Below are positions 393 to 16,210 of a stretch of 21,654 nt of DNA, in pieces (position 1 is the stretch's first letter; the number at the start of each line of letters is the position of its first letter). This DNA comes from a virus, in the IMG/VR virus record IMGVR_UViG_3300025896_000212, positions 1 through 21,654 of that record. One strand, written 5' to 3'. Under the pieces are notes generated by a model, which was not told where the DNA came from, did not search any database, and worked only from the letters and a program-made list of their open reading frames with translations. The position numbers were made by a program, and so were the translations under genes.

Positions 393-1775
393 CTACTGTT
401 GCGCTACCGGCATGCGCTTGCCCTGTAGCGAGGCGTCTACGCGGCGCATTATCCAGCGGATGGTATCGACCGTGAACGAGTTGCCAAGCGCCTTGTAGCG
501 CGGACCGTCAGGCGTCCGGTTGCGCGTGCCGTATGGCACATCAGTCCAGCCATCAGGGAAGCCCTGCAACCGCTCACACTCGGTTGGCGTGAGGCGGCGG
601 ACTACGGACGACGCGACATAGCTTCGCGACGATCCGCCGGAACTGGCGCGGATGTTGGCGGTATCGTGCTCGCCTTCGGGCATGGCACCGCCTTCGCGGC
701 CTCGCAGGTCAAATGCGATTGCGGCATGGCCACCAGCGTTCGCGTGCGAGCCAGATGCAGACATGGACCGAAGTGGCGGATGCTTGCCGTCCGTGGTGAA
801 TTGCACCTGCGTGCCTTTGGCATCAAATGCCACCAACGGCACGCCGCGCCCGGTTCCATCCTCGCTCGCATCGTGGCCTTCGGCGCGGAGGGAGTGGGTG
901 ACAAACATTCCAGCGCCGCTATCAATGTGCTGGTTATCAAGGCCAAGCTTGCTGCCAAATGCGGCATTCAATGTCGGCGCGACGATGCCTCCATCTAGGT
1001 CGAAATCGGTTCCAAGTCCGCCGCCGCCATGAGTGCGCGCGCTAATGGTTCCGGCAACGTCTTGCCTATTGCCTCGGTGCGGCGGAGTATCCCGGCGCAT
1101 GCCTTCTGGCTCAAAAAGTACGGTTGCAGGGTCGAACTGTCCGCCTCCAGTATCTGCGACAACGTAGACGCGACGGCGTCGTTGGGGCACTCCGAGATAT
1201 TGACTGTCGAGAACCCGCCAAGCGAGCCGTGCCCTTGGCCCGGCAACCATACCTGCGTCAGGCCACCGTCGCCCGAACGGTGAGACCAGGGCGTCATCGT
1301 GCCCGACAAGTGCTCCCAGGAAACATCCGAAGGCGTTGGTTTTGTCGCTGAGAACTCCGGGGACATTCTCCCAAAGAAGTCCGGCCAGTCCGTTTCCATC
1401 CTGCATCTCCCTCGCAAGCCGCACGAATTCCAGCGTCAGGTTGCCGCGCGCGTCCTTCAGTCCGCCGCGCAACCCGGCGAACGAGAACGACTGGCATGGC
1501 GTGCCGCCGACAAGCCATCCGACATGCCCGATCGTTGTCGGGTCGATAGCGGTGAAATCCCCATGGTTCACCACCGATCCGCCATCCCGCATGCGCCGGA
1601 ACGGTTTCCGCGACTTGCCGGCCGGCAATACGCGCGGCGGCGTGGCATCGAACCGATGCGCCAACACGTGGCATGGAAACGGCTCGATTTCCGCGAACCC
1701 GGCAGGCGTCCATCCCATGCCGTCAACTGCGACCGAGAATGCTTCAATGCCGCTGCATACGCTGAGGTATCTCAC
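393..1775 (-). CDS. C5-cytosine DNA methyltransferase (orphan, phage-type)
   Basis: This 460-aa protein transfers a methyl group from S-adenosylmethionine to C5 of cytosine in DNA. All key motifs are visible: SAM-binding SVCSGIEAF (residues 5-13), motif IV GTPCQSFSFAG with catalytic Cys about 94, motif VI WENV (about 135-138), motif VIII QRRRR (about 198), LTPTECERLQGFP (about 395) and GNSF (about 431) near the C-terminus. The roughly 190 residues between QRRRR and LTPTEC form a long target-recognition region. The GTG start at 1773-1775 is preceded by GGAGG 7 nt upstream, and its GTGA overlaps the primase stop, so translation is probably coupled. No restriction endonuclease is adjacent, which fits a self-protection or anti-restriction role. 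The recognised sequence cannot be predicted here. Confidence 0.95.
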   Translation of the reverse strand: MRYLSVCSGIEAFSVAVDGMGWTPAGFAEIEPFPCHVLAHRFDATPPRVLPAGKSRKPFRRMRDGGSVVNHGDFTAIDPTTIGHVGWLVGGTPCQSFSFAGLRGGLKDARGNLTLEFVRLAREMQDGNGLAGLLWENVPGVLSDKTNAFGCFLGALVGHDDALVSPFGRRWPDAGMVAGPRARLAWRVLDSQYLGVPQRRRRVYVVADTGGGQFDPATVLFEPEGMRRDTPPHRGNRQDVAGTISARTHGGGGLGTDFDLDGGIVAPTLNAAFGSKLGLDNQHIDSGAGMFVTHSLRAEGHDASEDGTGRGVPLVAFDAKGTQVQFTTDGKHPPLRSMSASGSHANAGGHAAIAFDLRGREGGAMPEGEHDTANIRASSGGSSRSYVASSVVRRLTPTECERLQGFPDGWTDVPYGTRNRTPDGPRYKALGNSFTVDTIRWIMRRVDASLQGKRMPVAQQ

Positions 1776-4420
1776 TCGCTCGCCTCCGGCACATAACTCC
1801 CGTCCAGCAAGCCATACGGCAACCACGTGGCGCGGCTGACGCCTCCGCCCGGAAACCGCTCGGTCGAGTGCGAGCGGAACGCGCCTGGCAGCATGCGCAA
1901 CGGGCGTTTCCAGTCTGCCTGCCATTGCGGCGCGTCCCGGAACAGGTCGCGCGTCGATGGCGCGCTATCGCTGATGGCGATCAGGTCGGGCGTCACCTTG
2001 ATATTCACCATCCCCAGCGCCATGCGGTGCGGACCGCGATCCGGCTCCATACGTGCCTCCTCAATGGCACTTCCGATGGTCATATCCACCGGGCCATGCG
2101 TCAGGAACACCCGCACCTTGCGACCGATGATGTACTGCAACAGGCGCTGCTCGTCGGTCTCGGACCCGATGGCGAGGTACTCGCTCCATCCATGCTGCGA
2201 TGCGATCCACTCCGCAGCTCGCTCCGGCGTCACGCGGTCGGTCTTGTGGAGCAGGTAGTACCCGGCCAGCATCGGCCCGATTTGGTCCGCCGCGCGGCGG
2301 GATCTGAACGCCACGGCGGCGGCGGATGTGAACACGCCAGCGTTGTGGAGCAGCGTTGGCAGGTTCCGCACCGTCCGCGCAAACAGCCTCGAGGCATATT
2401 CCTCGGTAAGCCATGCATCGATATCCCGCACCAGTCCCTGATAGTGCGCGTCGGCGTCCGGCGCTGTATTGGGCCGCAGCACCAGCCTCGATATGCGGCT
2501 TTCATCGGCCCGGTGGCGCACTGACGTGTTGATGGACGAAAAGCAGAAGCACGATCGGATGATGAACGTGACGGACCTGTGGTTGCTCCCGCCTTTGCTG
2601 ATCTCGCCTCCGCTCGATGCCACGCGCGCGAGGTCGAGAACGCCTTGCATGCGCCCCGACGATTGAGCGTCCTCCGCCTCGCTTTCGTCAAGTATGACGG
2701 GCCTCGCATCATACCCCATGCGCTGCCTAATGCTGGCCTCAGTCGTCTTGCCGTCAGCCCGTAGTGCGGCAGGCCCGACGATCCGGTTGATGATATCCAC
2801 CACGGTTGATTTGCCGGAGCCGGACGGACCGGTTATCCAGATATGCGAGCGCCAGTGCAGCGCGCCACTGACCGGTGCTATCACGCACCATCCGGCCATG
2901 AGCGCGGCGCTCAGCCGGTCATCCCATGTCAGCCGGCCGGATATGTCGGCCAGCCGATGCGCCTCGGCGCCCGTCGCTGGGTCGCCGAACCCGAACGCCC
3001 ATGGCGCGCTGGCCTCGTACACGTAGCGCGAGGCGACGGCGTGCAGCGGCACGGTCTCGTCACCGATGCGCGCCTCGGTGCCTGTGTGGACGATAATGCG
3101 CCTGCCATCCACCCACGCGCCGCGCCCACGAACCCGGCTCTCGTCGTATATGCCTGCCGCCTCGCATTGCCGCATCAGGCTGTTGGCGTACGCCTCCCAT
3201 GTCTCCTTGGTCAGCTTGCCGTCCGGCGCGATGCGTTGCCACCAGTCGAGCGGCGCCAGCTCCATCAGGCGCAACTTGGTGTGCTCCGCCGCGGTGAGGC
3301 AGACCACCTGCCCCTTGCCGCGCGGCAGGTACCAGTAGCCTTGCTTGGTATACCCGAGTGCGACGAATGGCGGACGCTCGCCTTGCGGGGCGGCTGGTTG
3401 CGGTGACGGCTCGTTGTCCGGCAAGGCTGGTGGTGGATATGCCCCGTCCATGGCGTCTGGTGACACGGCGTCGTCCTCGATTACCTCGCCAGTGTCGGGG
3501 TCGTGGGCAGGTATGGGCGTGTGGGCTGTGGCCGGTAGTGGCGCTGGTGCGGCGCGCTGCGGGCGGGATGGCGCGGGCGTCGGATCGAGCGCAGCGAACG
3601 CGAACGCGCGGCGCACCACGTCCTCGACCTGAGCCTGTGTCCATGCCGGGCGCCCGGATTGATTGGCCATGGCGCACCCCGCCGCGACCATGGCGGTGTA
3701 TGCCTCGCGCTCGGCAATGGAGCCGCCATAGGCCAGCGACCCGGCACGCACGCTGCGACGATATAGCGTGTCGTTCTGCCCACCAGGTGGGCACGCCGCG
3801 ACCTCAGCCACCAGCGCGTCCAGCGCCTTACGCCCATATGGCGTGGTGGCGCCGCTGCGCACGGGTTGCATGGTCGGCATGTCGGCTGGGCGTGGGCTCT
3901 TGCCAGTGTCGCGGACCATATCCACCAGCCATTGCGGGGCAGGTGGCGGGGCGACGTCGCGCGGATGCACCATCCACTCATACGCGCCATCGTCGCGGAC
4001 GGACGGGGCTACGGCGAAATACCCGCCCTTCCCCCCATCGCGCTCCCCCAGCGCGTCGAGGCCGGGCGCGAACCGGATGCGGCGCGGGATGTCGCCATCT
4101 GCAGGCCATGCGAATATGCGGTGCACACCGCCCCGTGGCGTGCGCTGTGTCGGGCATGCGGGCAGCGGACCGTTGATCGCCACCAGCGATGCGAGCGTAT
4201 CCTCGCCGCCATCGTCGCTATCCAGCACCCAGATCCCCGACGCGGCGCATGTGCGCACGGCTATGTTGCGGCGCGGTGAGCGTGCCCATGCGGCGCGGAT
4301 GGTGGCAGGGTCGGCGGTGGCATCCTTGAAGCCGTGCTTGGTCGCAGGCTTGGACGTGCGTGGCGCGAGCGGGTGGACCTGCCAGCCCATGGCGGCGTAG
4401 GCGAGTGCGTGGTCAAGCAT
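1772..4420 (-). CDS. bifunctional prim-pol primase / superfamily helicase-like ATPase
   Basis: This 882-aa replication protein has three parts. Residues 1-165 are a prim-pol domain: ALAYAAMGWQVHPL at the start, KHGFKDATADPATIRAAW, metal-binding D67 and D69 in WVLDSDD, and H100 in RGGVHRIF. Residues about 190-280 resemble a primase C-terminal helical region, followed by a Pro/Ala-rich linker (280-350). Residues 470-700 form an ATPase with Walker A GPSGSGKST (531-539) and Walker B PVILDESE (574-581), plus arginine-rich RISRLVLRP further on. Such proteins prime and unwind DNA at phage or plasmid origins. The gene begins 4 bp after the 73-aa gene's stop and overlaps the methyltransferase start by 4 bp, so the three form one operon transcribed away from the 4647-5025 region. 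Confidence 0.93.
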   Translation of the reverse strand: MLDHALAYAAMGWQVHPLAPRTSKPATKHGFKDATADPATIRAAWARSPRRNIAVRTCAASGIWVLDSDDGGEDTLASLVAINGPLPACPTQRTPRGGVHRIFAWPADGDIPRRIRFAPGLDALGERDGGKGGYFAVAPSVRDDGAYEWMVHPRDVAPPPAPQWLVDMVRDTGKSPRPADMPTMQPVRSGATTPYGRKALDALVAEVAACPPGGQNDTLYRRSVRAGSLAYGGSIAEREAYTAMVAAGCAMANQSGRPAWTQAQVEDVVRRAFAFAALDPTPAPSRPQRAAPAPLPATAHTPIPAHDPDTGEVIEDDAVSPDAMDGAYPPPALPDNEPSPQPAAPQGERPPFVALGYTKQGYWYLPRGKGQVVCLTAAEHTKLRLMELAPLDWWQRIAPDGKLTKETWEAYANSLMRQCEAAGIYDESRVRGRGAWVDGRRIIVHTGTEARIGDETVPLHAVASRYVYEASAPWAFGFGDPATGAEAHRLADISGRLTWDDRLSAALMAGWCVIAPVSGALHWRSHIWITGPSGSGKSTVVDIINRIVGPAALRADGKTTEASIRQRMGYDARPVILDESEAEDAQSSGRMQGVLDLARVASSGGEISKGGSNHRSVTFIIRSCFCFSSINTSVRHRADESRISRLVLRPNTAPDADAHYQGLVRDIDAWLTEEYASRLFARTVRNLPTLLHNAGVFTSAAAVAFRSRRAADQIGPMLAGYYLLHKTDRVTPERAAEWIASQHGWSEYLAIGSETDEQRLLQYIIGRKVRVFLTHGPVDMTIGSAIEEARMEPDRGPHRMALGMVNIKVTPDLIAISDSAPSTRDLFRDAPQWQADWKRPLRMLPGAFRSHSTERFPGGGVSRATWLPYGLLDGSYVPEASE

Positions 4421-8270: not shown

Positions 8271-8366
8271 ATGACCATCCTGATCGCATCTATCGCCGGC
8301 ACCGTCATATTCGGCATCATAACCCTGATCTTGCTGATTGCTCTCATCTCGGGCAGCAAGGACTGA
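8271..8366 (+). CDS. very small membrane peptide (31 aa)
   Basis: The frame encodes MTILIASIAGTVIFGIITLI followed by LLIALISGSKD, almost entirely one transmembrane helix with a short charged tail. The stop TGA shares its last base with the ATG of the large terminase (TGATG at 8364-8368), which supports it being translated. No strong ribosome-binding site is visible. Function unknown; lysis-related or superinfection-exclusion roles are only guesses from size. Confidence 0.52.
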   Translation: MTILIASIAGTVIFGIITLILLIALISGSKD

Positions 8367-10060
8367 TGACCACCAACGCCCGCCAGTGGAGCGGCTCAAC
8401 TCCGCCCAATTACGTCGAGGTCTACCGCTGGCGACAGGGCCGCTTGCTCGGCATGCGCAAGCACAAGCACATGCTGGCTGGCGCGCTGGAATACTACCGC
8501 ACCATGCCAGTCGAGTGGATCAACGACTGGTGCGACACATATAACCCGCGCAACGCCATGGACCCGGATGCGCTGGTCTACATGCCGATGGTGCTGTTCC
8601 CGCGCCAGCGGGAGTTCGTGCAATATCTCCACCAGCTCGTCACGTCCGCTGCGAACGGGCTGGTGGAGAAATCCCGCGACATGGGCGCAACGTGGGTGGC
8701 GTGCGCCTACTCGGTATGGGCATGGCGGTTCATCCCCGGCGCAGCCATCGGATGGGGCTCGCGATCGTCGACGCTGGTTGACCAGTTGGGCGATCCGAAA
8801 TCCATCTTTGAGAAGATGCGCGACATTATCCGCCGCTTGCCGCGGGAGTTCTGGCCAGTCGGGTTCAACCCCAAGCTGCACATGACATCGATGCGCATCC
8901 TGAACCCCGAAACTGGCGCATCCATCATCGGGGAGATTGGCGACAACATCGGTCGCGGCGGTCGCACGCTCGCCTATTTCGTTGACGAGGCCGCGCACCT
9001 CGCGCACCCCGAGGCCATCGAAGCCGCACTCGGCAATAACACCAACGTCCGCGTCGATATCTCGTCCGTGTTCGGCGTCGGCAACGTGTTCCACCGCAAG
9101 CGCGAGGCAGGCGTCGTCTGGAAACCCGGCCAGCCGATGGTGAAGGACCGCGCCAACGTGTTCATCATGGACTGGCGCGAAAACCCGCTTCACACTCAGG
9201 AATGGTACGATAACCAGCGGGCCGAGAAGGAAGCCATCGGCCTGTTGCATATCCACGATCAGGAAATCAACCGCGTCTATGGCGCGGCCATCACTGGCAC
9301 CATCATCCCCGACGCCTTCGCTCGATCGTGCCTTGACGCTCATCGCGTCATCCCCGGTATGGACCGAGGCAAGTGGCGCGCGGCCATCGACCCTGCAGAC
9401 GAGGGCCGCGACCGACACGCGGCCGGCGCGGCTCGCAACGTGGTGCTGCGCCGGGCGGACCACTGGCATACCGGCGACACTGGCGACACGACGCGGCGTT
9501 GCGTTGCGTGGTTCCGTGATCTGGGGTGGCTCGATATCCAGTACGATAGCGTCGGCGTCGGGGCGGGCGTGAAATCCGAGGCCAACCGCCTTGCCGCGCT
9601 ACCGGAAGGCAACCCGGAGCGGTTGCCGCGCGGCATGCGGTTCATCGCGTGGAATGCGGGCAGTGGCGTGCTGTGGCCTGACGCGCATATCGATCCGAAC
9701 GATCCTGATAGCCCGACCAATGCGGAGCAGTACGCGAACCTGAAAGCGCAAGCGTGGTGGAGCATGCGCACCAGGTGCGAAAAAACCATGAAGGCCATTG
9801 CGGCGATCAAGGCTGGCGAGCCATGCCCATATCACCCCGACGAACTGTTCTCTATCGACACGGACAGCATCGGCATGGACACGGCGTTGCAACTGGTAAA
9901 GGAGCTGACGCAGCCCGCCCGCAAGGAAGGCACGACAACGACCAAGATCGTGGTGGACAAGAAGCCGGGCGGCAGCGAATCCCCGAACCTCGCCGACATG
10001 GTTGTGATGCTGATGTTCCCGATCCCCGGCGAGGGGTATGACCTTGCGTCGGCGCTGTGA
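8366..10060 (+). CDS. terL: terminase large subunit (packaging ATPase/nuclease)
   Basis: This 564-aa motor pumps DNA into the prohead and cuts it. The N-terminal ATPase shows the adenine-binding region PRQREFVQYL (79-88), a terminase-type Walker A, EKSRDMGATW (101-110), Walker B LAYFVDEAA (202-210) with catalytic Glu 208, and coupling motif NVRVDISSVFG (227-237). The C-terminal RNase H-like nuclease shows AIDPADEGRDRHA (340-352), the second acidic site IQYDSVGVGAG (391-401) and a final Asp in SPNLADMVVMLMFP. Length and motifs are complete. The ATG shares a base with the preceding TGA. A strong terminator follows at 10112-10144, so the packaging operon ends here rather than running into the portal gene. 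Confidence 0.96.
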   Translation: MTTNARQWSGSTPPNYVEVYRWRQGRLLGMRKHKHMLAGALEYYRTMPVEWINDWCDTYNPRNAMDPDALVYMPMVLFPRQREFVQYLHQLVTSAANGLVEKSRDMGATWVACAYSVWAWRFIPGAAIGWGSRSSTLVDQLGDPKSIFEKMRDIIRRLPREFWPVGFNPKLHMTSMRILNPETGASIIGEIGDNIGRGGRTLAYFVDEAAHLAHPEAIEAALGNNTNVRVDISSVFGVGNVFHRKREAGVVWKPGQPMVKDRANVFIMDWRENPLHTQEWYDNQRAEKEAIGLLHIHDQEINRVYGAAITGTIIPDAFARSCLDAHRVIPGMDRGKWRAAIDPADEGRDRHAAGAARNVVLRRADHWHTGDTGDTTRRCVAWFRDLGWLDIQYDSVGVGAGVKSEANRLAALPEGNPERLPRGMRFIAWNAGSGVLWPDAHIDPNDPDSPTNAEQYANLKAQAWWSMRTRCEKTMKAIAAIKAGEPCPYHPDELFSIDTDSIGMDTALQLVKELTQPARKEGTTTTKIVVDKKPGGSESPNLADMVVMLMFPIPGEGYDLASAL

Positions 10061-10175: not shown

Positions 10176-12020
10176 ATGAACAAGCCCATCATCCGAGTGC
10201 CTGCCGGCAGCACGCCATTCCTCGCGGATGGGTTCGTGAATTTCGCGTCTCGCATCGGCACGGCGTCCGACAAGTCGCGCTATGGGCATTACCAGACGAC
10301 ATGGGCCGACTATGCCGACATAGACGCGGCCTACAGCACGTCATGGTTCCGCAAGATCGTAGATATCCCTCCCTTCGACGAGGTTCGCGAGTGGCGGACG
10401 TGGATGGGGCTGGACACGAAGCAGGTCGCGGCCGTCGATGAGACAGAGAAGCGTCTCGACATCCGCCGCAAGGTGCGGGACGCGCGCATCCTCGCCCGCA
10501 AAGATGGTGGCGCGCTGCTGCTGATGGGCGTTGCCGGGCAAGACCCATCGCAGCCGCTCGGTCCGGTCGCGCGCGGGGCGTTGCAATTCGTGACGGTGCT
10601 GAGCCGTTGGGAGGTATCGCCCGGCCCGCGCGATAACAACCCCATGTCGCCCTCACATGGTGGGCCTGAGTATTACACGCTCACCGACATGGCCGCGACC
10701 CGCGTGCACCCGTCGCGCGTCATCCGGTTCATCGGCAGTCCCATCCGCGACCGCCGATATTACGATGGATGGGGCGAAAGCCTCTGGATCGAGATGCGCG
10801 ATGCCGTGTCCAAGGCGGACCAGATCGCGGCCGGCGTTGCAGCGCTGGTGGATGAAGCCAAGATTGACGTGGTGCGCATCAAGGGGCTGATGGGCAACAT
10901 CGCGACGGCTGAATACGAGACCCTGCTGGCGCGTCGGTGGTCATCGATCATGACGCTGAAATCGTCCGTCAACGCGCTCATGCTGGACGGCGAAGACGAG
11001 TACGAGCAGAAAACCCTGACGTTTCAGGGTCTGACCGATATCCAGAACAACGCCCTGATGATCATGGCCGGTAAGGCTGATATCCCTGCCACGCGCCTGC
11101 TCGGCCGCTCGCCACAGGGCATGAACGCAACGGGCGAAAGCGACTTGCGAAACTACTACGACCGCATCCGCGCCGGCCAGCAAACCGACCTCGCGCCGAC
11201 GCTCCGCCCGCTCGATATGGCCCTGCTCGCATCCACGCTCGGGGCCGTGCCGCCTGAGGCGTATGTCGAGTGGAACCCGCTCTATCAGATGAGCGAAAAG
11301 GAATCGGCGGACGTTGAGAAGGTGTTTGCCGACACGGCTGAGAAATACGCCAACATGGGCGTAATCCCGGACACGGCGCTCACTGCCATGGTGCGCGGCG
11401 GTATCATCGAGCGCGGGCAGTGGCCGGGCGCGGATAACGCCTACGCCGATGCTGACGCCGCTGGTGAAATGCCGGACATGCTGGACGAACCTGACCCGGA
11501 GCCTGTGGTGGATCCGGTTCCGGTGACGCCGCCCGCACCAGTCACCGACGCCGCGCCCCGCACGCTGTATGTGCGGCGCGACGTGGTTAACGCCGCCGCG
11601 ATCAAGGCATGGGCTGCGAAGCAGGGGTTTGCCGCGACCGTCGATGACATGCACGTCACCATTGCGCATAGCACCACGCCGATTGACTGGATGAAGGTGC
11701 CTGCGGAGTGGTCCATTGGCAAGGCGGACGGCAAGATGACCGTGCCAGCCGGTGGCGCGCGACTAGTCGAGCCGCTTGGCGACAAGGGCGCTGTGGCGCT
11801 GCTGTTCAATTCGACGGAACTGGCATGGCGTCACATGGCCATCCGCGAGGCTGGCGCGTCATGGGATTTCCCGGAATACCAGCCGCACGTCACCATCACG
11901 TATGACGGCGCTGGCGTTGATCTGCGGACAATCGAGCCGTATCGCGGCCCGATAGAGCTTGGGCCTGAGGTGTTCGAGGAGGTCAAAGACCCCGGCACCA
12001 TCGAACACACGGAGAGTTGA
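10176..12020 (+). CDS. portal protein (DUF1073-type) fused to a C-terminal Acb1-like 2H phosphoesterase
   Basis: The 614-aa product has two parts. Residues 1 to about 425 are a DUF1073-type portal: GFVNFASRIGTASDKSRYGH near the start, AAYSTSWFRKIVDIPPFDEV, and LLGRSPQGMNATGESDLRNY in the middle. This forms the DNA channel and tail-attachment ring. After an acidic, proline-rich linker (MPDMLDEPDPEPVVDPVPVT), residues about 462-614 form a 2H phosphoesterase-like domain with two HVT motifs, MHVTIAHS (H493) and PHVTITYDG (H571), 78 residues apart. In Acb1 (T4 gp57B family) paired HxT motifs cleave cyclic oligonucleotide signals of CBASS immunity. I chose ATG 10176 because it lies after the terminator; it has no Shine-Dalgarno sequence. 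Whether the fused domain is active is inference. Confidence 0.93.
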   Translation: MNKPIIRVPAGSTPFLADGFVNFASRIGTASDKSRYGHYQTTWADYADIDAAYSTSWFRKIVDIPPFDEVREWRTWMGLDTKQVAAVDETEKRLDIRRKVRDARILARKDGGALLLMGVAGQDPSQPLGPVARGALQFVTVLSRWEVSPGPRDNNPMSPSHGGPEYYTLTDMAATRVHPSRVIRFIGSPIRDRRYYDGWGESLWIEMRDAVSKADQIAAGVAALVDEAKIDVVRIKGLMGNIATAEYETLLARRWSSIMTLKSSVNALMLDGEDEYEQKTLTFQGLTDIQNNALMIMAGKADIPATRLLGRSPQGMNATGESDLRNYYDRIRAGQQTDLAPTLRPLDMALLASTLGAVPPEAYVEWNPLYQMSEKESADVEKVFADTAEKYANMGVIPDTALTAMVRGGIIERGQWPGADNAYADADAAGEMPDMLDEPDPEPVVDPVPVTPPAPVTDAAPRTLYVRRDVVNAAAIKAWAAKQGFAATVDDMHVTIAHSTTPIDWMKVPAEWSIGKADGKMTVPAGGARLVEPLGDKGAVALLFNSTELAWRHMAIREAGASWDFPEYQPHVTITYDGAGVDLRTIEPYRGPIELGPEVFEEVKDPGTIEHTES

Positions 12021-12023
12021 GAC

Positions 12024-12635
12024 ATGGCCATTACCGCATTGCAGGACGTATTCCGCTACCTCGACGCCGATGGTCGGTTGCAGGCCGCTGAACTGGTGCG
12101 CGCCGTCATGGCGGGTCTTGACGGGGCAGGCCCCATCTCTCGCGCCAATCCGCTTCCCGTGCTTGGGGCGGCAGGCTGCTACGCCACCGCTTCATTCACG
12201 CCAGCGGCTGCGGCCTATTCCGCCAATGACATTATCGGCGCAAGCGGCGAGTTCGCCTTCACCTTCGCGGATGGCACGGCCATTCCGGCGGGGTCGGTGG
12301 TGCGGGTGCTGGACAGTCTGCTTCGCATCGACGCGACGGCGTTGCAGGCGTCGGAGGCCGGCTACCAGTTGCAGACATACTCCGCGACCCAGCCCAGCGC
12401 GCAGGCCGACAATGATGCGTGGACGCTGGCGAGCGGGGACTTGACGACCTATCGCGGCGCGATGGCCATCGGAACGCCGGTGGACCTCGGCGCGGCGCTG
12501 TTCGTGCGGACGCCCTATCAGGACTTTGACGTGCGGCTCACCACGTCCAGCCTGTGGGCGCGGTTGCAGACGCTCGCCGGGTTTACCGCGACTGCCGTCG
12601 CCCGGCAGGTGACACTTTACGGGATCGTGCTCTGA
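12024..12635 (+). CDS. phage structural-type protein (203 aa)
   Basis: The product starts MAITALQDVFRYLDADGRLQ and is beta-rich with few charges: ASFTPAAAAYSANDIIGASG, then a jelly-roll-like series of short strands and ADNDAWTLASGDLTTYRGAM. I know this layout (AYxANDxxG near the N-terminus, ADNDAW in the middle) from uncharacterised virion-associated proteins near portal genes. GGAGAG lies upstream of ATG 12024, 3 nt after the portal stop. Its stop overlaps the next start. A capsid-surface or head-decoration role is inferred from composition and position only. Confidence 0.75.
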   Translation: MAITALQDVFRYLDADGRLQAAELVRAVMAGLDGAGPISRANPLPVLGAAGCYATASFTPAAAAYSANDIIGASGEFAFTFADGTAIPAGSVVRVLDSLLRIDATALQASEAGYQLQTYSATQPSAQADNDAWTLASGDLTTYRGAMAIGTPVDLGAALFVRTPYQDFDVRLTTSSLWARLQTLAGFTATAVARQVTLYGIVL

Positions 12636-13429
12636 TGGTTTCGGCCCCGGCCTATATGGCCCTGTTGAGCGGCTACGACCCGCTGGCGCGTGGGCTGTTT
12701 GATCGGTCCCCGGAGCAGGGCGCCCCCAGGCGTGGGCTGATCAGCCGAACGCTGAAGAAGCTCCGCGCCGCTGGCGTGGTGGCTCGTGGCGACTGTCTAT
12801 GGTTCCAAGCTGCCGCCGACGCCACAATTGCGCGGCTCAACTGGCTCTCGTCGTCCTACACCCTTGCGGCTGTCAACAGCCCGACGTTCACGGCAGATCG
12901 CGGCTACACTGGCGACGGCGCGAGCGCCTATCTGACGACGGGGTTTGTGCCATCGACAGCGGGCGGGAAGTTCGTTCAGGACAGCGCCGCACTTGGCGTA
13001 TGGGTGCGTACTTTTTCGGCATCCGCCAACCGCGGGCACGGCGCGAGCGACGTAGCGGTCAACTCCTATTCGACCATCGAGTTCCGCACTGATGGTGCGA
13101 TGTGGGGCAAAACCAACGGCGTTAGCACGTCCAATGTCGTCTATGCCGGGGCAACCTCGGCGCCGGGCCTATTCGTAACCGAGCGACTCGGCGCGGCATC
13201 GGTACGGATAGTGAAAAACGGCGTGTCTCAGGTCACGGACGTGTTTGCGTCGACGGCCAATGTGCCCCGTGAAATGTACCTATTGGCTCGAAACTCGAAT
13301 GGCAGCGGAGCGGGCTTTAGCGCGGATCAGATCAGCATGGCCTATCTCGGTGGCGCGCTCACCGACGAGCAGCACGTCGCGCTCTATGACATTGCGCGCG
13401 AATACCTGACCGCAGTGGGGGCAATCTGA
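12635..13429 (+). CDS. LamG/concanavalin-like virion protein (264 aa)
   Basis: ATG 12635 shares its first base with the preceding TGA. The N-terminal 55 residues (PLARGLFDRSPEQGAPRRGL, then a basic segment) are followed by a beta-rich domain with the pattern SPTFTADRGYTGDGASAYLT, LGVWVRTFSASANRG, YSTIEFRTDGAMWG and AYLGGALTDEQHVALYDIAR. Such a series is typical of LamG/concanavalin-like lectin folds that bind glycans. The small final helix after ALTDEQ is usual in these proteins. In a phage, such a domain would sit on a surface fibre or head decoration; placement among head genes favours a head or neck appendage. No enzymatic motif is seen. Confidence 0.78.
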   Translation: MVSAPAYMALLSGYDPLARGLFDRSPEQGAPRRGLISRTLKKLRAAGVVARGDCLWFQAAADATIARLNWLSSSYTLAAVNSPTFTADRGYTGDGASAYLTTGFVPSTAGGKFVQDSAALGVWVRTFSASANRGHGASDVAVNSYSTIEFRTDGAMWGKTNGVSTSNVVYAGATSAPGLFVTERLGAASVRIVKNGVSQVTDVFASTANVPREMYLLARNSNGSGAGFSADQISMAYLGGALTDEQHVALYDIAREYLTAVGAI

Positions 13430-14938: not shown

Positions 14939-15133
14939 CGTGCGCGTGCGCACCATGCCTGCATATCCGACGCTACTTTCGAGCCGAACGAGGGGATAGG
15001 CGAAGTCTCAGTCACTCATGCGCGCAAGCGTCAAACCGGGGCGTCGGGCGGTGGAGACCGTGACATAGCCCGGCAATGAGTGGCGTCCCCGTCTTATTGC
15101 GCATTGCGCCCATGGCGTGCTATGTGGCGATGC
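14939..15133 (+). other. 195-bp non-coding gap before the DUF2213 gene with nested inverted repeats
   Basis: No gene is apparent. CACTCAT (15013-15019) pairs with ATGAGTG (15076-15082), and inside it CCGGG (15036-15040) pairs with CCCGG (15069-15073). There is no T-run, so this is not a standard terminator. TTGCGC (15097-15102) and TATGTG (15121-15126), 18 bp apart, form a weak candidate promoter ending 7 nt before the DUF2213 start. Confidence 0.4.
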
Positions 15134-16210
15134 ATGTACCTGACAGACCGCATCACGATTGACGCGCCACGCCGCACCAATGACGGATATATGGCTGCGA
15201 CCGTGAAGGTCGCGCGGACCGGTATCCAGCAGTATCTCCCATCCGAGGTTGACCCGAAGAACGAGCACGGCATGCGTGATCGCGGCGTCGTGCGCATCTA
15301 CCGGCCCGAGGACGAGGTGTTCAGTGCGGACAGCATGGCAACTGCGGCGCATCGGCCCGTGACCGTTGACCATCCGTCCGAAGCCGTGACCGCCGACAAC
15401 TGGCGCAAGTACAGCGTCGGCATGGTTGGCGGCGAGGTGGCGCGCGACGGGGATTTCCTCGTTGTCCCCATGGCCATCATGGACGCCGACGCCATCCGCG
15501 CCATTGAGAGCGGCAAGCGGGAAATCTCGCAGGGCTACAACTGCGATTTCGACTGGACTGCGGGCGTCACCAAGGACGGCTTGGAATATGACGCAATCCA
15601 GCGTAACATCCGCCACAACCACACGGCCATCGTCGGCCTCGCACGCGGCGGCCACGAACTCAGGATCGGAGACGACATGCCTGACATCAAGCTGACGCAG
15701 ATCGTACGCGACGGCGTGCCCGTCGATGTGAACGACGCTGCCAAGATCATCATCGACGCCCTCGATGCCAAGCTGGCCGCTGCGAGCACGCAGATCGGCA
15801 CGCTCACCGCTACCGTATCGACCAAGGATGGCGAGATCGCCGCGCTGCGCCAGCAGGTAGCCGATGCTGCCATGACCCCGGCCAAGCTCGACGCTGCTGT
15901 TGCTTCCCGCGCCAAGGTGATCGACGCTGCCAAGCGCATCTTTCCAGCCATCGTCACGGACGGAAAGACCGACGCGGCAATCCGCAAGGAAGCCGTGGTG
16001 CACCGCATGTCCGACGCCGCGACCATGGACGACAACGCCATTTTCGGCGCGTTCACCGCTCTCGCTGCAAGCGCGACCGTCACCGACAACAAGACCGCCG
16101 ACGCAGTGCGTGGCGTGGTCCCGCAGGGCGATGCGATCAAGGCCGCCGAAGCCGCTCATGCCGCCCGCCGCAAGTCCATGTCGGATGCGTGGCGCGACAA
16201 GGCGAACTGA
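15134..16210 (+). CDS. DUF2213 prohead protease/scaffold fusion (358 aa)
   Basis: The N-terminal half (residues 1-180) is a DUF2213 domain: YLTDRITIDAPRRTNDGYMA, VARTGIQQYLPSEVD, RPVTVDHPSEAVTADNW with H80, REISQGYNCDFDW with S132, and QRNIRHNHTAIVGLARGG. The His/Ser arrangement resembles prohead maturation proteases, so I infer that it cleaves scaffold and capsid proteins during head maturation. The C-terminal half has a coiled coil (ALDAKLAAASTQIGTLTATV and on, about 205-245) and Ala-rich helices typical of scaffolds. ATG 15134 was chosen by the family's N-terminus; it has no Shine-Dalgarno sequence. An in-frame start at 15677 probably makes the scaffold alone. Confidence 0.9.
   Translation: MYLTDRITIDAPRRTNDGYMAATVKVARTGIQQYLPSEVDPKNEHGMRDRGVVRIYRPEDEVFSADSMATAAHRPVTVDHPSEAVTADNWRKYSVGMVGGEVARDGDFLVVPMAIMDADAIRAIESGKREISQGYNCDFDWTAGVTKDGLEYDAIQRNIRHNHTAIVGLARGGHELRIGDDMPDIKLTQIVRDGVPVDVNDAAKIIIDALDAKLAAASTQIGTLTATVSTKDGEIAALRQQVADAAMTPAKLDAAVASRAKVIDAAKRIFPAIVTDGKTDAAIRKEAVVHRMSDAATMDDNAIFGAFTALAASATVTDNKTADAVRGVVPQGDAIKAAEAAHAARRKSMSDAWRDKAN
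15677..16210 (+). CDS. probable nested scaffold protein (in-frame internal start, 177 aa)
   Basis: Within the DUF2213 gene, ATG 15677 (MPDIKLTQIVRDGVPVDVND) is preceded by GGAG at 15668-15671 with 5 nt spacing, a better start signal than that of the full gene. It sits at the junction between protease and scaffold halves. Separate scaffold made from an internal in-frame start of the protease gene is known in lambda (C and Nu3) and Mu. Here the separate product is inferred from the start signal and the domain boundary. Confidence 0.5.
   Translation: MPDIKLTQIVRDGVPVDVNDAAKIIIDALDAKLAAASTQIGTLTATVSTKDGEIAALRQQVADAAMTPAKLDAAVASRAKVIDAAKRIFPAIVTDGKTDAAIRKEAVVHRMSDAATMDDNAIFGAFTALAASATVTDNKTADAVRGVVPQGDAIKAAEAAHAARRKSMSDAWRDKAN

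Follow-up and report, generated by a model that had tools for sequence, protein, structure and literature searches.

An Acb1-like 2H phosphoesterase domain on a phage portal protein and its relatives on other head proteins

The window analysed here, the whole 21,654-nucleotide stretch (21.7 kb) of IMG/VR virus record IMGVR_UViG_3300025896_000212, holds an ordinary head module encoded on the plus strand (Table 1). Two proteins encoded between the portal and MuF genes (12024-13429) have no Pfam match, the second resembling a LamG-type fold by eye. Genes for a C5 cytosine DNA methylase (393-1925) and a Prim-Pol primase protein (1772-4420) lie on the minus strand, opposite in orientation to the head genes.

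Table 1. Head genes of the window and features of the portal gene (nucleotide positions in the window)
Feature	Position	Strand	Remarks
Small terminase subunit	5026	+	
Gene at large-terminase position	8366-10060	+	No Pfam match; DNA matches annotated large terminase genes
Portal with C-terminal Acb1-like domain	10176-12020	+	614 aa, ATG start
Portal core PF06381 Phage_portal_3 (DUF1073), residues 49-390	10320-11345	+	E 4.5e-98; Pam3 portal 8hds Z 28.9
Pro/Asp/Glu-rich linker, predicted disordered, residues ~433-458	11472-11549	+	Full-model pLDDT mostly <50
GGAG and tandem in-frame GTGs, candidate internal start	11498-11510	+	Unconserved, probably non-functional
Acb1-like 2H phosphoesterase domain, PF23474, residues 462-605	11559-11990	+	Profile match, fold
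First catalytic motif H493-V-T495 (H44/T46, paper numbering)	11652-11660	+	
Second catalytic motif H571-V-T573 (H113/T115, paper numbering)	11886-11894	+	
E601, counterpart of Acb1 E141	11976-11978	+	
MuF	13662	+	
Maturation-protease-like DUF2213 gene	15080-16210	+	
Major capsid	17050	+	

The Acb1-like domain makes up the last quarter of the portal protein and is preceded by the linker ADAAGEMPDMLDEPDPEPVVDPVPVTPPAPVTDAA. In a model of the full-length portal, pLDDT falls below 50 in linker segments 433-441 and 446-458, and the domain is predicted to stand as a separate unit, in which a pair of strands (493-503 and 571-575) carries the two H-x-[ST] motifs of the 2H superfamily. Among 123 relatives the linker between portal and domain spans 19-99 residues, with a median of 34.

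An earlier note on this DNA had proposed an Acb1-like domain fused to the portal from two HVT motifs lying 78 residues apart behind a proline-rich linker. Both motifs are present, and the Pfam profile PF23474 (Acb1) bears out the assignment with an E-value of 8.5e-36 and 123.3 bits, against a curated cut-off of 27. The solved Acb1 structure 7t26 was matched with E 2.4e-7 when the single sequence served as query and with 6e-20 when a family profile did, and these sequence matches exclude a chance resemblance to Acb1. The comparison of folds that the note had proposed gave the same answer. An AF2 model of the domain alone, built from 65 sequences (the window together with viral or genome-contig sequences), reached a pLDDT of 90.6. 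Its top matches among solved structures were the Acb1 of Erwinia phage FBB1 (7t27 and 7t26; VIA Z 16.2 and 15.8, superposed at 2.0 and 1.9 Å over 133 and 130 residues), with Foldseek E-values of 2.4e-7 for 7t26 and 7.9e-7 for 7t27. They were followed by the phosphodiesterase of Burkholderia phage BCSR5 (9Q2G/9Q2Y, deposited as Acb1; Z 13.7), which shares the 2H fold but is a 165-residue chain of remote sequence (profile E 1.6e-5), and then by LigT-type RNA phosphodiesterases with Z around 10. Judged by sequence profile and predicted fold, the C-terminal domain of the portal is a 2H phosphoesterase of the Acb1 family. It shares with T4 gp57B and FBB1 Acb1 the fold, the HxT/HxT tetrad, Tyr12, an aromatic residue at 107, Glu141 and a single Pfam family. 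Unlike those free proteins it is fused to a portal, with about 24% identity in the structure alignment, and it belongs to a separate clade. Some caution with names is needed, as the database name Acb1 is also borne by large fused phage proteins.

The catalytic tetrad of Acb1, H44/T46/H113/T115 in published numbering (PMC9117128; one higher than in the T4 sequence used here), corresponds to H493/T495/H571/T573 of the portal. Retention of the HxT residues in homologues, on which the earlier note had made its proposal depend, is nearly universal: in all but one of the 184 other non-redundant domains the tetrad reads H-T-H-T or, in about 15, H-T-H-S. Serine at the place of the second-motif threonine is normal among 2H enzymes. 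The cleaner figure comes from the first scan (19 HTHT and one HTHS among 20), because the patterns of the wide scan include the histidines whereas those of the first scan omit the first HxT motif. A single head-linked domain, in locus L150, has an altered tetrad, the first catalytic histidine being replaced (H44R), and this is possibly a natural inactive form; it lies in an open reading frame at 1584-3444. Across 25 independent pairs of fused genes the median dN/dS was 0.098 for the domain and 0.109 for the portal core. Values near 0.10 indicate that the domain is maintained as a protein and is not a relic; by this measure it is under purifying selection.

Conservation across many portals could also reflect a role in structure or assembly, with the enzyme activity unused. 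We consider this very unlikely, given that the catalytic tetrad is conserved, that the tether is flexible, that the domain is also found elsewhere, both attached to unrelated proteins and encoded by genes of its own, and that most related portals lack it: of 1252 phage records matching the portal query, only 33 do so over 80% or more of its length.

The substrate pocket is more varied than the tetrad. No fused domain in the five classified partner groups has lost the counterpart of Y12 (Y465 here), and that of F107 (F565 here) is W, H, F or Y across fused domains. E141, which in Acb1 reads the N6 of adenine (PMC9117128), corresponds to E601; it is E in 95 of the 139 DUF1073 fusions and A or S in many. 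W74 is V531 here and V, I or M, rarely L or H, in nearly all members of the clade, while the lid residue W147 is G607 here and W in 95 of 139 DUF1073 fusions. This portal domain thus has two of the four nucleobase-stacking aromatics (Y12, W74, F107 and W147). With the tetrad kept and the pocket residues variable, catalysis is very likely, while the sequence does not tell precisely which substrates are cleaved. One may ask whether the domain acts on another nucleotide substrate, such as the 2',3'-cyclic phosphate ends of RNA, as in tRNA repair, or on cyclic signals outside CBASS. Such reactions are widespread among 2H enzymes, PHROG 755 labels the family RNA ligase, and this portal lacks two tryptophans of the pocket that binds cyclic dinucleotides. 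However, both fold and sequence are nearest to Acb1, well above LigT, the Y12 and, in this portal, the E141 counterparts are retained, and it is not obvious why a repair enzyme should be joined to head proteins. We regard this alternative as rather improbable.

The domain is carried by hundreds of viral contigs, with about 460-590 confirmed matches per scan. We surveyed 185 non-redundant loci ranked by their similarity to such domains, and because of this ranking the following partner counts are not population frequencies. In agreement with the earlier note's suspicion that the fusion is widespread, the domain stands behind the portal in 139 DUF1073 portals; it also does so in PF04860 portals (nine, plus the divergent L188) and nine Mu-type portals. 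It stands in front of four S78 prohead proteases and two DUF2213 maturation proteases, and is further found on three XkdF-like proteins (two assigned by similarity to L018 only), two MuF proteins and a few large unclassified proteins (L021, L167, L175 and L207). Stand-alone domains occur in RcXuper, DSS3P8, L139, L171 and others. The Acb1-like domain therefore occurs on three portal families, on maturation proteases and on MuF, all of them head proteins, and in the loci inspected it sits mostly on such proteins. The protease (S78, XkdF-like or DUF2213) and MuF fusions are those of L020, L121, L122, L173, L018, L193, L200, L155 and L168, and in L020, L121, L122, L193 and L200 a portal gene lies upstream of the fusion.

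In a tree of the domains, a fully supported long branch splits the head-linked clade from T4/FBB1-type Acb1, and the tree requires the domain to have switched partners no fewer than 14 times among ten classes, although many of the inner forks are weak. Pairs such as L052/L049, with 97% identity in the domain and 56% in the portal core, suggest exchange of the domain. That the domain has spread faster than the portal was considered and rejected: its mean identity exceeds that of the portal, but this comparison is biased by the ranking of loci on domain similarity, and close pairs show equal rates.

Acb1, an anti-CBASS nuclease by which phages break down the alarm signals of this bacterial defence, was defined from T4 57B, and nine further homologues, which may or may not include the head-linked clade, cleaved 3'3'-cGAMP and cAAA (PMC9117128). 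The portal domain probably cleaves cyclic di- or trinucleotide signals made by CBASS-type cyclases of the host, so that infection would not be aborted. With the head-linked clade lying well apart from T4-type Acb1, we hold this activity likely and no more than inferred; the long branch counts against an anti-CBASS role, as do the loss of W74 in nearly all of the clade and the glycine at W147 here. To our knowledge, no activity is known for the head-linked clade, and in the open papers we found no experimental test of a portal-borne Acb1. A CD-NTase (PF18144, SMODS) was detected in only one of five host genomes with such prophages, which would likewise count against the role, but five genomes are too few for a conclusion and the model misses some CD-NTases.

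According to the proposed model, a folded 2H enzyme domain would be made only as part of the portal, on a flexible linker, and would work as part of portal subunits in the cytoplasm or in the procapsid. It would most likely act late, as head proteins accumulate and CBASS is provoked by head components; according to a review (PMC12409349, citing Richmond-Buccola 2024), interaction with a CBASS sensor was shown for a prohead protease. As the domain would hang free of the portal body, assembly need not turn it off.

The main alternative to late action is delivery from the head, which involves the same enzyme activity by another route and at another time. According to this alternative, the domain is housed within the head, where it is cut loose or carried along, and would be delivered with the DNA to act early in the next host. 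Fusions of certain viral 2H domains to MuF or portal domains were described in 2022 by Iyer, Burroughs and Aravind, who took them to be probably packaged, with a possible role against nucleotide signals (PMC9503650). The partners found here (portal C-termini, maturation proteases and MuF) are in, or face, the procapsid interior, and the window itself holds a maturation-protease-like DUF2213 gene. Pseudanabaena phage Pam3, the sole relative with a solved portal that we found (PDB 8HDS), bears on this route. Its portal matches the two-domain architecture over residues 32-605 (E 3e-108), and its gene order is likewise terminase, portal, minor capsid; its second motif is HIS. Only 442 of the 621 residues of the Pam3 chain are modelled, our alignment to the structure stops at 440, and 8HDS was not retrieved when the Acb1 domain model was compared with solved structures. 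Missing from the portal structure, the Pam3 domain (463-619) is therefore mobile or removed in the virion. We know of no report of activity for it. However, a flexible linker explains the missing density equally well, and fusion by adjacency could yield the same partners, given that the genes for portal, MuF and protease lie side by side. Release would, moreover, require a putative proteolysis, because portal rings remain with the emptied head. We consider packaging and delivery possible but unlikely. Equally tentative is the wider notion that a dedicated Acb1-like clade forms a portable head module, repeatedly attached to unrelated portals, maturation proteases and MuF, exchanged between phages and serving as a head-delivered anti-signalling enzyme, unlike the early-made Acb1 of T4.

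A different way of freeing the domain was raised in the earlier note, namely translation from an internal start in the linker. The sites exist as described: GGAG at 11498-11501 stands 3-6 nt ahead of tandem in-frame GTGs at 11505 and 11508, the latter opening a frame of 170 aa. Their use as a start did not hold up. In the nearest relative (L002), whose domain is 85% identical, GCGGAAG replaces the GTGs and a Shine-Dalgarno-like site is likewise absent; among relatives such a site with a start occurs in 12 of 134 linkers (9.0%), barely above the 6.9% of same-sized windows elsewhere in portals. As GGAG and GTG are also frequent in G+C-rich DNA, we rejected the internal start as unsupported, and release of a free Acb1 domain in this manner is very improbable.

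Since the fusion and its anti-signalling role were already proposed in 2022, they are not new in themselves. The text of that proposal (PMC9503650) deals with the same kind of fusion and the same role against nucleotide signals, but with MuF and portal only, whereas we also find S78, XkdF-like and DUF2213 proteases and three portal families. What our analysis adds is that the clade is intact yet altered in its pocket, that it has several partners among head proteins and that its tether is flexible. Acb1 has been called relatively rare and limited to specific phage groups (2024 preprint, PMC11722364); if the proposed activity is confirmed, anti-CBASS capacity may be commoner, and otherwise timed, than thought. 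As CBASS can respond to head proteins, an antidote borne on head proteins would open to testing a direct connection between what triggers the defence and what counters it, and the variety of carriers turns when and where the enzyme works into a testable question.

In Synechococcus phage Yong-M3-232 (L040:1480-2144) portal and Acb1 are encoded by two overlapping genes, while Ssp-JY40 (L042), otherwise nearly identical there, has the fused gene; the apparent natural split comes from a stretch of about 130 bp that is duplicated in tandem, either a real event or an assembly error. The 'prohead protease' labels in GenBank of DSS3P8 gp129 (L034) and ZHS_4 (L032) are names only, perhaps carried over from fused relatives, the proteins being stand-alone and Acb1-like. 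An in-frame TAG in L293 is the natural stop behind the domain. L167:1-5484 is a single open frame of 1828 aa, with an FAD/pyridine-nucleotide oxidoreductase region and an Acb1 domain near residue 1000.
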